64,000 nucleotides of DNA from a virus. A model generated the notes under the pieces. It saw only the letters and a program-made list of their open reading frames with translations, ran no database searches and was not told the DNA's origin. Location of the stretch: positions 1 to 64,000 of the IMG/VR virus record IMGVR_UViG_3300047509_000085; one strand, written 5' to 3'. A program made the position numbers and the translations under genes. How positions within the stretch are numbered: the stretch's first letter is position 1; each line of letters begins with the position of its first letter. Positions 39,023-54,879 of the stretch are shown in pieces.

Positions 39023-39960
39023 GCGGCGTAGTAGACGACGACGAGACCGGCACGCAGGGCAACGGCCATGCGGCGGTATCGGACGACGACCTTCGCGAAC
39101 TGCTGGCGCAGGAAAAGCGCGCACGGACCACGGCGGAGCAGCGGGCGGCAACGGAGCGCGAAGCCCGCGCCCGGGCCGAACGGGACCGCGACGAAGCCCG
39201 CGGCCAGGCGACATCGGCCACCGATCAGCGCTGGGTGGCGGAGGAGCAGAGCCTGGAGGCGGGGCTGGCGGCGGCCGAAAGCGAAGCCGAGGCGCTGGAA
39301 CACCGCATTGCGCAACTGAACGCCGACGGCTCGTTTGCCGAGGCGGCCAAGGCGTCGCGGGCGCTGGCGCGGGCCGAGGCGACAATCGGGCTGATCGGGC
39401 AGAAGAAGGAATGGCTCGCCCAGGCCAAGGAGATGGCAAAGCAGCCGCCACCGCCGGAACGGACGGAGCGGCGTGCGGGTCTCGACCTGTCGGGCTACTC
39501 GGCCAAGCAGCGCCGCTGGATCGAGGATCACCCGGAATACACGCAGATGGACGCGGCCGGCGAGCGGTTCCGCGCCCGAGTCGCTGCGGCGCACTACTCC
39601 GCCATGGCTGACAACATCCCCATCGATTCGGAGGATTACTTCTCTCACATCGAAAGTCAGAGTGCGACGGGATCACGGCGCCAGCGCGAGGTGGATGTTG
39701 ATGAGGGCGACGATCCGCCGCCGCGCGTGCAGCGGCGCGATGCTGGCGGAGCATTGCCGGTAACTCGACGCGCTCCTGGTGGCAACGGTGCGAGGTCAGG
39801 AGAAGTTAGACTGAGCCCGGAACAAAGGGAGGCCGCCGATTTTACGATGCCTGATGTTCCGATCGACGATTACGAACTGAATGGCATCCGCCAGCCGGGA
39901 CGTTATCGAAAGTATGCCCAGCTTCATGCGAAACTCAAAGGAGAGGGACGCTTGAACTAA
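39019..39960 (+). CDS. Scaffold protein candidate
   Basis: 313 residues, acidic N-terminus, long coiled coil (~25-145, rich in Ala/Glu/Arg) and a helical C-terminus (IRQPGRYRKYAQLHAKLKGE). It precedes the capsid genes, is highly charged and lacks enzymatic motifs, all typical of scaffolds. Direct homology not established. Confidence 0.6.
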   Translation: MSGVVDDDETGTQGNGHAAVSDDDLRELLAQEKRARTTAEQRAATEREARARAERDRDEARGQATSATDQRWVAEEQSLEAGLAAAESEAEALEHRIAQLNADGSFAEAAKASRALARAEATIGLIGQKKEWLAQAKEMAKQPPPPERTERRAGLDLSGYSAKQRRWIEDHPEYTQMDAAGERFRARVAAAHYSAMADNIPIDSEDYFSHIESQSATGSRRQREVDVDEGDDPPPRVQRRDAGGALPVTRRAPGGNGARSGEVRLSPEQREAADFTMPDVPIDDYELNGIRQPGRYRKYAQLHAKLKGEGRLN

Positions 39961-39985
39961 TGTATCAGCATGGTAGAGTTGAGTC

Positions 39986-40065
39986 TGTGGTGCGGCGCGG
40001 TGCGGTCAGGTTAGGTGAGGCGCGCTGTGGTGGGGTGAGCCGAGGCATGGTGCGGCAATGTATGG
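39986..40065 (+). repeat. Degenerate pentanucleotide array YNNGG, copy 1
   Basis: Sixteen consecutive five-base units, perfectly in phase: TGTGG, TGCGG, CGCGG, TGCGG, TCAGG, TTAGG, TGAGG and so on. All sixteen begin with C or T and thirteen end in GG. It fills the gap between scaffold and capsid-associated genes. GG every five bases could form two-tier G-quadruplexes. Confidence 0.6.
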
Positions 40066-40069
40066 AGAG

Positions 40070-40106
40070 TGGCGGCAGGGGTTATGCTCTTGCCGCCATT
40101 CGCATT
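40070..40106 (+). terminator. Hairpin terminator candidate
   Basis: TGGCGGCAGG pairs with CTTGCCGCCA over ten positions (one wobble), followed by TTCGCATTTT. It separates the array from the capsid-gene ribosome site. Confidence 0.45.
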
Positions 40107-40122: not shown

Positions 40123-40584
40123 ATGGCCATCACACTCCAACGCAGCGATCAGCGCAGCGAGCAGAGGCCGAGGCAAAGATTGCAAATCCGCACGCCCGGC
40201 AATCGCTTCGACATCGACCAGAGCCGTATACCGCAGGGGATGGCGTACGAGTGGAAGCGCAAGAACTTCATGGGCGCCGAGGACATCGAGCATCTGGTGA
40301 ATTTGGATGCGAACGGCTGGACCGCGGTGCCGGCCGAGCGCCATCCGGAACTGAGCGGCACGCGGTTGCAGTCCGGTTCCGAGATCGTGCGCGGCGGCCT
40401 GATGCTGATGGAGCGCCCGGTCGAGATCACCGAGGAGGCGCGCGAGCTGGACGGCTTCGCGGCGAAGAACGCGGTGGCAAGCCAGGTGCAGCGGCTTGGC
40501 CTGAGCGCGCGCACGGTGAAGGGCGGGATCAAGAGGAGCTACGCTCCGCCGCCAGAGGATGCGATGGTGGCAGAGGATGAATAG
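40123..40584 (+). CDS. Conserved virion-operon protein before the capsid genes
   Basis: 153 residues with ribosome site AGGAG. RFDIDQSRIPQGMAYEWKRK, then GAEDIEHLVNLDANGWTAVP, AERHPELSG and IVRGGLMLMERPVEITEEAR match a conserved podovirus protein found just upstream of the major capsid protein. Function unknown. Confidence 0.7.
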   Translation: MAITLQRSDQRSEQRPRQRLQIRTPGNRFDIDQSRIPQGMAYEWKRKNFMGAEDIEHLVNLDANGWTAVPAERHPELSGTRLQSGSEIVRGGLMLMERPVEITEEARELDGFAAKNAVASQVQRLGLSARTVKGGIKRSYAPPPEDAMVAEDE

Positions 40585-41558: not shown

Positions 41559-42467
41559 ATGGCAATCAACAGATCCCAAATCCGTGACTTCCTGCTGCCG
41601 GGTCTGGCAGACATCGAAGGCAAGTATCCGCAGATACCCACGCGCTGGCGCGAGTTCCTGGCGACGGGGACGAGTAAGATGGCGCTCGAACGCATCGCCG
41701 AGGCCCGCTACACGGGTCTCGCGCAGCTCAAGAGCGAGGGCAGCGCCACGACGTTCGACAATGCGCCGGGCGAGCGGTTTGTCTGGAACATCGAGCACAA
41801 GACCATCGGGCTCGGGTTCGCGATCACGGCGGAAGCGCTGGAGGACAATCTCTACAAGGACCAGTTCAATCCGCAGAGCATGGGGTTGCTGGAGTCCTTC
41901 GCGCAGACCAAGGAGATTTTGAACCATCAGTTGCTGAACAGCGCCGGCACATTCAATCCACTGTTCGGCGGCGATGGGCAGGCGTTGCTGTCGACTGCGC
42001 ATCCGATCGACAACGGCACCTACGCCAACCGGCCGGCGGTGGACCTGGACTTCAACGAGGCGGCCGTGGAAACCGCGCTGAACCAGATCAGGCAGTTCCC
42101 CGATCAGGCTGGGCTGCTGTCGATGAGCCGCGGGCTAAAGGTCATCGTGCCGCTGGCGCTGCAGTGGCAGGCGGAACGGCTGTTCAAGACAGAACTGCGG
42201 GTTGGCACGGCGAACAACGATGTGTCGGCGATCCTTTCGTCAGGAGCCTTGCCCGAAGGGTTCGCAGTCAGCGAATTTCTGACGAGCAACTTCAGCTGGT
42301 TTATTACCACTAACGTTAAGGGGTTAGTGTACTACGAACGCGCGGCGTATGAAATGGACCTCCAAGTCGATCCCACAACCGGCAACCTACTCGTTATTGG
42401 ACGGGAACGATATGGAAGCGGAATAAAGAACCCTCGCGGAATTTGGGGAACAATGCCGACTTCGTGA
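41559..42467 (+). CDS. Major capsid protein, HK97-fold candidate
   Basis: 302 residues. Key segments: SKMALERIAEARYTGLAQLK (N-arm), VWNIEHKTIGLGFAITAEAL, ALLSTAHPIDNGTYANRPAV and FLTSNFSWFITTNVKGLVYY, with MDLQVDPTTGNLLVIGRERY near the end: the pattern of Mu-like/podovirus major head proteins. Assembles the icosahedral shell. Confidence 0.8.
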   Translation: MAINRSQIRDFLLPGLADIEGKYPQIPTRWREFLATGTSKMALERIAEARYTGLAQLKSEGSATTFDNAPGERFVWNIEHKTIGLGFAITAEALEDNLYKDQFNPQSMGLLESFAQTKEILNHQLLNSAGTFNPLFGGDGQALLSTAHPIDNGTYANRPAVDLDFNEAAVETALNQIRQFPDQAGLLSMSRGLKVIVPLALQWQAERLFKTELRVGTANNDVSAILSSGALPEGFAVSEFLTSNFSWFITTNVKGLVYYERAAYEMDLQVDPTTGNLLVIGRERYGSGIKNPRGIWGTMPTS

Positions 42468-50678: not shown

Positions 50679-51395
50679 ATGGCAGAGGAAATCTGGCGGC
50701 CAGTCCCCGGTTTTGAAAGCTACTACGAGGTCAGCGATCTTGGCCGCGTGAAGTCATGCGCCCGCTCTGTGCTCCGTGTGCGTCAGGGGGTTGACGGCGA
50801 ACTGAAGATACCTGAACGCATTCTAAAACCACGCAAAAGTGGGAGTGGGTATTTTTCAGTCCACCTTTACAAGGACGGGTTGGGTAAGAATCACGATTTA
50901 CATAGGCTAGTCCTCTTAGCGTTTATGGGCCATTCACATGCCGGAGAAGAGGGTTGCCATAACGATAGGGATAAGTCGAATAACCGCCTTAGCAATCTAC
51001 GATACGACACGCCCAAGAACAACCATGCCGATAAGTACAGGCATGGCACCGCGCTCTTTGGAGAGAAGAACCATCTCGCTGGCCTCAACGATGAGGTTGT
51101 TATGGCGATTCGCGCATTAAAGGGTCGCAAGACCATGAAAGAAATTGGTGAAATGTTTGGCGTAAGACCGCTGAATATTGCAAATATTTTGGCGGGGAGA
51201 ACGTGGTCTCATCTTGGCGGCTTCGGGCCGCCGCCTAAACGATGGAAGATTTCAGACGAGCAGGCAGAGGCGATCAGGCAACTCACCGGCAAAGAAGTGC
51301 GTAGCGTGACGGCCAAGAGGTATGGCGTCACTAAAAGCTGCATCCAGCACATCCAACATGGTCGTGTCCGAATGCCGCCGGCTCAGGTGCCATGA
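50679..51395 (+). CDS. NUMOD4-HNH homing endonuclease
   Basis: 238 residues. NUMOD4 (IWRPVPGFESYYEVSDLGRV), HNH_3 core (LHRLVLLAFMGHSHAGEEGC, HNDRDKSNNRLSNLRYDTPK) and two C-terminal HTH units (TMKEIGEMFGVRPLNIANIL; VTAKRYGVTKSCIQHIQHG). Lower GC than the tail genes around it. Homing insertion between tail genes. Confidence 0.88.
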   Translation: MAEEIWRPVPGFESYYEVSDLGRVKSCARSVLRVRQGVDGELKIPERILKPRKSGSGYFSVHLYKDGLGKNHDLHRLVLLAFMGHSHAGEEGCHNDRDKSNNRLSNLRYDTPKNNHADKYRHGTALFGEKNHLAGLNDEVVMAIRALKGRKTMKEIGEMFGVRPLNIANILAGRTWSHLGGFGPPPKRWKISDEQAEAIRQLTGKEVRSVTAKRYGVTKSCIQHIQHGRVRMPPAQVP

Positions 51396-53603: not shown

Positions 53604-54054
53604 CTTCCCGGCCGGCGTTCGCTTCTGCCAAGAGGGCGATTGCCCAGCGTTGTTCGACATTTTCATGGAAGCGCATCGGCTTGGCGGCTGGATGAACGTC
53701 AACGAGGATATTGTCCGTGACGTGATTGCCCGCGCGACTAGGCGAGACACATTCGCCATTGCGGTCATTCCTGGGCCAACGTGCGTTGAAGGTGTTATCG
53801 CTTTTCAGCCGGTCAGGCAATGGTACGGGAACCAAGATAGCTGGTATTGGAGCGAGCTTTTGCTATTTGTCAGGGTAGAATACCGAAAGTCTCGCCATGC
53901 TTGGAAGTTGCTGCAATTTGCTAAATGGTTCCAGCATGCAGTGAATGCGCCGGTGATGGTGTCTCTGATGCCAAAAGAGGATTTTGACAGAAAGGAACGC
54001 TTGCTGGGGCGCTTCGGTAAGCGCGTCGCCAGTAGCTTCCTGATCAATGTGTAA
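53581..54054 (+). CDS. Second GNAT-like protein
   Basis: 157 residues from GTG 53581 (alternative ATG 53551). SELLLFVRVEYRKSRHAWKL followed by LQFAKWFQHAVNAPVMVSLM repeats the layout of the preceding GNAT protein at low identity, with the acetyl-CoA loop degenerate (YRKSRHA). Probably a diverged duplicate. Confidence 0.5.
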   Translation: MPDRKPPSFPAGVRFCQEGDCPALFDIFMEAHRLGGWMNVNEDIVRDVIARATRRDTFAIAVIPGPTCVEGVIAFQPVRQWYGNQDSWYWSELLLFVRVEYRKSRHAWKLLQFAKWFQHAVNAPVMVSLMPKEDFDRKERLLGRFGKRVASSFLINV

Positions 54055-54083
54055 AGCGGAGACGGCTGAGATAGCCGCCTCCT

Positions 54084-54277
54084 CCCTGCCTTACCGCACC
54101 ACGGCTCGCCTCGCCCCGGCTAACCCAGCCTTGGCTTGCCACGCCGGACCTGACCAAGCCCGCCATGCCGCGCCACGCCTCACCATGCCAGTCCTAGCCC
54201 GGCCACGCCTCACATTGCCATGCCTCGCCTCGCCCAGCCCGGCCTCACCGTGCCTTACCCCGCCTAGCCCTGCCTGT
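54084..54277 (-). repeat. Degenerate pentanucleotide array YNNGG, copy 2
   Basis: Thirty-nine consecutive units: 38 pentamers and one four-base unit (54159-54162). Read on the minus strand: ACAGG, CAGGG, CTAGG, CGGGG, TAAGG, CACGG, TGAGG and onward. 32 of 38 pentamers match YNNGG. It touches the stop codon of the leftward gene at 54277 and lies in its likely transcript. Positions two and three vary freely. Confidence 0.7.
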
Positions 54278-54879
54278 TACGCCACTTTACGCAGAGTTGG
54301 CTTCTTCCCAGCCAACTCCGCCCAACGAACCAAAGCAAAACGCCCAAACGGCCCACCGCGTTCTGGCCGATAGTCGCCAAGTCCTAACCGCTTGCCAGAT
54401 TCTTCCAGTAACTGATGCACCGTGTCGGACTCAATCATTGATAAATCTATGTCGATGTTAATGTCGGCGCCCCACGAATTTAGCCGTGGACGGTGACGCA
54501 TGATCCTGCCCTTGGTGCTTGGAATGACCACTGGCCTTGAATCCACTTCAAAAGTGCGTAACGGGTTCCCGTCATCATCAATAAGACTGATTTCCTCATC
54601 CAACACGAGCACCGCTGCTGGGACAACAAACTTGAGGGACTTCCGACTGCCGCGCTGCTTGTGACTGCCGCCGGCCTCACGCAACATCCGAGCTACTGAA
54701 CTTCCCGGAATAAACAGCGTTCCGTCTGTTCGCTGATAGGCAACTTTTGTCGCTTCCTCGCGCGGATCGCCACGTTTGATGTGGATGGCTCGCGTTGTTT
54801 CTTCGACCTCTGATGCCTCCGCCCAGCGGTGCATCAGCATTGCCGACGTGCCGGATATACTAGCTACGAAAATTGCCAT
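54277..54879 (-). CDS. Conserved phage protein of unknown function, adjacent to the YNNGG array
   Basis: 200 residues from ATG 54879 (MAIFVASISGTSAMLMHRWA). Conserved points: GTSAMLMHRW, DPREEATKVAYQRTDGTLFI, DSRPVVIPSTKGRIMRHRPR and the Gly-rich end GLGDYRPERGGPFGRF. This pattern occurs in many phage and prophage genes. A fold like RAMP/Cas7 RNA-binding proteins is possible from the Gly-rich segment but unproven. The only leftward gene in this region. Confidence 0.65.
   Translation of the reverse strand: MAIFVASISGTSAMLMHRWAEASEVEETTRAIHIKRGDPREEATKVAYQRTDGTLFIPGSSVARMLREAGGSHKQRGSRKSLKFVVPAAVLVLDEEISLIDDDGNPLRTFEVDSRPVVIPSTKGRIMRHRPRLNSWGADINIDIDLSMIESDTVHQLLEESGKRLGLGDYRPERGGPFGRFALVRWAELAGKKPTLRKVA

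Follow-up and report, generated by a model that had tools for sequence, protein, structure and literature searches.

A divergent VIPR locus from an uncultivated phage, with a two-block GGYNN array directly downstream of its RAMP gene

Background

What is the role of an array of GG dinucleotides, set at a fixed spacing of five bases, that begins exactly where a phage gene of unknown function ends? This arrangement occurs in the window analyzed here, namely the first 64,000 nucleotides of the IMG/VR virus record IMGVR_UViG_3300047509_000085. A preliminary description, made from the sequence alone, reported that the array starts at the stop codon and reads on the strand of the gene. Both statements are confirmed in the sequence: gene 54277-54879, on the minus strand, ends in TAA, and the array begins at the next base.

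Viral Interference Programmable Repeat (VIPR) systems were first described in a 2026 preprint (bioRxiv 2026.04.26.720920; PMC13142463). They are composed of a RAMP protein, Vipr, and of vrRNAs of alternating GGY and NN, where the NN bases follow a one-base-skip rule when they pair with DNA, and transcription is silenced. Published vrRNAs have 9-16 repeats, and competing phages and satellites are given as natural targets (PMC13142463). We conclude with high confidence that the locus in the window is a VIPR locus that would work by the mechanism proposed for these systems. It is a new, divergent member from an uncultivated phage.

Results

The array downstream of the gene, which we refer to as array 1, is a predicted vrRNA region of 193 bases on the minus strand (54276-54084). 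It opens with CAGG and continues with 22 pentamers (block 1, 54163-54272), a 4-nt unit CGGG (54159-54162) and 15 further pentamers (block 2, 54084-54158). Besides the two short units, 32 of the 37 clean pentamers fit YNNGG, with CAATG and ACTGG as exceptions in block 1 (20 out of 22) and CAAGC, TTAGC and CGAGC in block 2 (12 out of 15). The earlier count of 39 units, 32 of 38 fitting YNNGG, was therefore essentially right, but it missed that CGGG shifts the pentamer phase. The NN code of block 1 is AG TA GG AA AC GA CG TG GA GA AT AA GA GT CG TA CT AT GA GT GC AT, and that of block 2 is TT CA CC GT AA AA TG TA GG GA GA GT GC AA AG. The CGGG unit possibly marks the boundary between two guides. 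Because its 15 units sit within the published range of repeats per vrRNA, block 2, which adjoins the hairpin described below, is the best candidate for a mature guide.

We scored the array with a cyclic GGYNN model and obtained 122 bits, as compared to 15-21 bits for the best matches when the whole window was shuffled ten times with a first-order Markov model. Shuffled sequence is thus far from equally periodic, which had been named as a possible refutation. In 5,000 resamplings that kept the dinucleotide background of the array, the fixed phase richest in YNNGG held on average 5.3 and at most 12 such units, while that of the real array holds 20. GC-rich composition therefore does not explain the array, and the view that it is under selection and unlike a simple microsatellite, with GGY kept and NN free, holds. 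At the 3' end of the array lies a hairpin with a 10-bp stem and an AUCUC loop (54058-54082, minus strand), which is of moderate stability (-29.5 kcal/mol for the fold of 54035-54110, z -1.9) and is a candidate for the vrRNA tail or the transcript end. A 108-aa open reading frame that crosses the array on the plus strand (54047-54373) was discarded as an artefact.

The gene itself, vipr (54277-54879, minus strand), encodes a 200-aa Cas7/Csm3-like RAMP protein according to its profile, fold and Foldseek matches. The protein matches phrog_4652 (E 8e-15), a family of unknown function that is also matched by all 62 aligned relatives. A Pfam search returned no family and an Rfam search returned chance matches only. 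The family profile aligns over its full length with the PDB chain 36pp_D, 'SUSP1 Vipr protein' (E 7e-38). Since a pairwise alignment with this protein shows low identity, 32% over a stretch of 60 residues (E 4e-10), the kinship is drawn from the family profile. The AlphaFold model has a mean pLDDT of 92 and finds its best Foldseek matches in Csm3 chains (E 5e-7) and type VII Cas7-like chains. The reading frame is intact, the start at 54879 agrees with the N-terminus of homologues, and the protein carries the loop GLGDYRP..GPFGRF. We take its IPGSS and GxGDxRPxxxGRF motifs to be those of Cas7-type RAMP proteins. The locus therefore combines a RAMP homologue that is small, has a single domain and carries the RRM core and the G-loop, and an adjoining non-coding GGY/NN array, which are among the features by which VIPR is recognized. 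The suggestion that the adjoining Gly-rich protein binds the array gains from this result, as its end is the RAMP glycine-rich loop, which makes it the likely binder. The SUSP1 Vipr co-purifies with GGY/NN RNA in which NN serves as guide (PMC13142463).

This is the one RAMP gene of the Vipr family in the whole record. No vap gene lies beside it; no other minus-strand gene adjoins, its neighbours being encoded on the plus strand. Such accessory genes are typical of VIPR and not universal. An HNH endonuclease gene occurs among the virion genes (50679-51395). In the relative closest by capsid, MW202675 (55% identity in that protein), the 59.7 kb checked contain no vipr and no clear array, and the VIPR module is therefore accessory cargo. 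No Vipr matches were found in 369 genomes of one bacterial class, a result that is not informative alone.

We measured the association between gene and array in both directions. Starting from the arrays, we searched IMG/VR for 15 GG dinucleotides spaced five bases apart, irrespective of gene content, and recovered at least 120 stretches. Nearly all listed matches are GGYNN with free NN, and 106 listed arrays remained after removing simple repeats. Among the matches listed, a Vipr homologue is present within the fetched stretch for 82 of these 106 arrays, and 121 out of 123 arrays lie on the strand of the gene, at a median distance of 38 bp. The arrays, again among the matches listed, are downstream of vipr in 41 loci, upstream in 10 and on both sides in 31. 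In 2 of the 25 listed records whose array stretch lacked the gene, vipr was found elsewhere in the record; the remaining arrays may be fragments, neighbours of more divergent Viprs or true orphans. Five records of 18-105 kb (L015, L016, L023, L044 and L122) have GGYNN arrays and returned no Vipr with the family profile.

Starting from the gene, we collected by protein similarity 18 homologues, which are encoded by phages, by plasmids and by one IMG/VR contig. An array scoring at least 25 bits occurs no more than 1.5 kb away from all 18, always on the strand of the gene, as opposed to 2 of 116 control stretches; at a threshold of at least 35 bits the counts are 16 out of 18 and none out of 116, respectively. 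SUSP1 itself scores in this test, with arrays flanking the gene on both sides. The set is broad, as it covers phages of Gordonia, Mycobacterium, Pseudomonas, E. coli and Vibrio, and plasmids of Azospirillum, Bradyrhizobium and Paracoccus. Whether homologues carry adjacent period-5 arrays, the check proposed in the preliminary description, is thus answered in the affirmative, and the linkage between array and gene family is near-obligate. On the Azospirillum, Bradyrhizobium and Paracoccus plasmids (L195, L196, L198-L201) vipr is found together with arrays, with genes for a metallophosphoesterase and an AAA ATPase coming next in the Bradyrhizobium loci.

To characterize the repeat unit, we considered approximately 8,000 units of the family. 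The three constrained positions are G (92%), G (90%) and C or T (94%), while NN is near uniform. In a pair of Gordonia phages with vipr genes that are 88% identical, the arrays share only around 54% identity. GGY is therefore conserved and NN hypervariable between relatives, as is the case for VIPR. The NN composition fits best codon positions 1 and 2 in 94 out of 125 arrays (65 sense, 29 antisense), far above the other phases. Both arrays of the window fit best the sense phase, each being short. Such a fit is expected if the targets are genes and the skipped base is the wobble base. It supports a guiding function indirectly, and a composition bias of other cause is also possible.

The 4-nt unit of array 1 has counterparts in 15-18 other loci, where a 4-nt unit interrupts the arrays every 45-65 nt; this unit is GGCA in 94 out of 127 cases. 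Long arrays punctuated by GGCA, with a reset of the phase, are seen in L134 (3573-3886), L136 (3573-3797), L071, L101, L107, L060 and others. The GGCA unit looks like a guide delimiter, and the long arrays may be strings of guides. The preprint mentions staggered arrays for VIPR (PMC13142463), and this punctuation may already be known. A variant code, with GGANN for GGYNN, occurs at three loci that bear vipr (L082, L118, L121).

A scan of the 69.6-kb record with the cyclic GGYNN model returned one further array, 14 kb from vipr, on the opposite strand and with no vipr gene beside it. This array 2 extends over 39968-40080 in the scan (48 bits), with around 16 units when delimited by eye (39986-40065, plus strand), and is a predicted second vrRNA. 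Its NN code is GT GC GC GC CA TA GA GC GT GG GA GA AT GC AA AT. It lies in the head-gene region, between a 374-aa open reading frame ending at 39960 and another at 40123, and the major capsid gene follows further downstream, at 41559. A strong hairpin (40067-40101, plus strand) caps the array and is followed by GCATTTT. Its fold of -29.3 kcal/mol is exceptional (z -5.2), as none of 200 shuffles was equally stable. Block 2 has 15 units and array 2 has 16, each with a predicted hairpin 3' of it, that of array 1 at z -1.9. The last units of array 2 resemble those of block 2 (GG GA GA [G/A]T GC AA A[G/T]). We give about even chances to array 2 being a stand-alone vrRNA that is co-expressed with the genes of the head and that the distant Vipr takes up in trans, in which case VIPR phages would scatter guides into other operons. 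An array around 10 kb from its vipr is present also in one other record, that of L049.

We searched for the DNA that these guides may recognize. No one-base-skip target of any block was detected in the own genome or in the other loci examined. In 1.24 Mb of sequence, both own and related, no rule with skips of 0-3 bases performed better than shuffled guides. Six scans of IMG/VR and one of GTDB, with exact seeds of 8-9 units that would miss mismatched targets, returned 3-20 matches each, none of which could be prolonged past the seed clearly above chance. The peptide [KN]WYGE[DE]VA, which recurred under the matches of block 2, was set aside because its contexts differed.

Discussion

The locus resembles the VIPR of Escherichia phage SUSP1 in its phage-borne RAMP protein of around 200 aa and in the adjoining YNNGG arrays on the same strand, and it may do so also in the predicted folded element 3' of the arrays. 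SUSP1 has four separate vrRNAs of around 100 nt, both up- and downstream, and a vap1 gene, whereas the window has one continuous downstream array of two blocks, no adjoining vap and a second array 14 kb off on the other strand; the identity between the two Vipr proteins is low. A continuous GGYNN array directly after vipr is found also in the Gordonia phages UmaThurman, Pipp and Ecliptus, where GGCA recurs every 45-65 nt, as compared to the single CGGG of the window. With Cas7 of class 1 CRISPR (Csm3, type III-A) the protein shares the fold, the 'PGSS' helix motif and the C-terminal glycine-rich loop; by analogy, it may also share with Csm3 the character of an RNA-guided filament protein. CRISPR-Cas loci are recognized by direct repeats, unique spacers and a set of cas genes. 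The window instead has a period-5 array and a single RAMP gene, with no CRISPR repeats, spacers or other cas genes; the period is five rather than six, and the guide is non-contiguous.

Could the array be a structural DNA or RNA element, for instance an R-loop former or a stack of two-tier G-quadruplexes, to which the protein binds and which guides nothing? GG every five bases on one strand, and the strand bias towards the gene in 121 of the 123 listed arrays, would agree with it. However, quadruplexes, which the preliminary description had favored, need neither a pyrimidine at the third position nor units of exactly five bases; a constant spacing in which the third base is constrained and NN is free is what a Cas7-like filament with one pentamer per subunit would require. 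In addition, the partner is a Cas7-like RAMP protein homologous to the SUSP1 Vipr, and a structural element would not make the NN composition track codon positions 1 and 2. We therefore consider this explanation very improbable. The chance that the array is a degenerate, functionless microsatellite grown by slippage is slimmer still. The internal repeats of 10-35 bp within array 1 do suggest local duplication, but GGY is kept and NN free across unrelated phages, and the association with the gene (18 of 18 homologues, 2 of 116 controls) already refutes it.

A decayed VIPR, with vipr intact and degenerate guides lacking current targets, deserves more attention, and we judge it unlikely. Deviating units amount to 5 out of 37 in array 1 and around 3 out of 16 in array 2, block 2 and array 2 have GC and TG in place of GG, and the target searches found none. 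On the other hand, deviations of around 8-10% per G position are usual in the family, the reading frame is intact, the G-loop is conserved and hairpin caps are present. Counting against the VIPR reading itself are the exact-seed and one-base-skip searches that found no target, the absence of an adjoining vap, the units with GC for GG and the low pairwise identity with the SUSP1 Vipr.

In a functional VIPR locus, vipr would produce the small Cas7-like RAMP protein, and the 3' array would be transcribed with it or near it to release one or two guide vrRNAs. Each pentamer of the vrRNA would be covered by one Vipr subunit that holds its GGY bases, leaving the exposed NN pairs free to base-pair with double-stranded DNA, with one target base skipped between successive pairs. 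The bound complex would then block transcription of a competing mobile element, and array 2 may supply another guide in trans from 14 kb away. Expression and binding of the vrRNAs, the one-base skip and the repression are here carried over from what the preprint describes in relatives. For the phage of the window we infer that the array is transcribed, how the subunits are spaced, where the guides end, that array 2 acts in trans and what the target is. The repeat, its near-obligate association with the vipr family, the RAMP fold of the protein, the homology with SUSP1 Vipr and the hairpins come from the present analysis.

Conclusions

VIPR is a newly described RNA-guided system and the proposed ancestor of class 1 CRISPR effectors. 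The present case reached it independently from raw sequence and adds figures of gene-array linkage in both directions, while the fit of NN to codon positions offers an independent statistical sign that the target base left out is the wobble base. For the arrangement and processing of guides, the distal array and the GGCA units provide leads. If guides are indeed scattered into other operons, this could serve to time attack or self-protection in what appears to be a CRISPR-like, RNA-guided weapon that phages use against each other.
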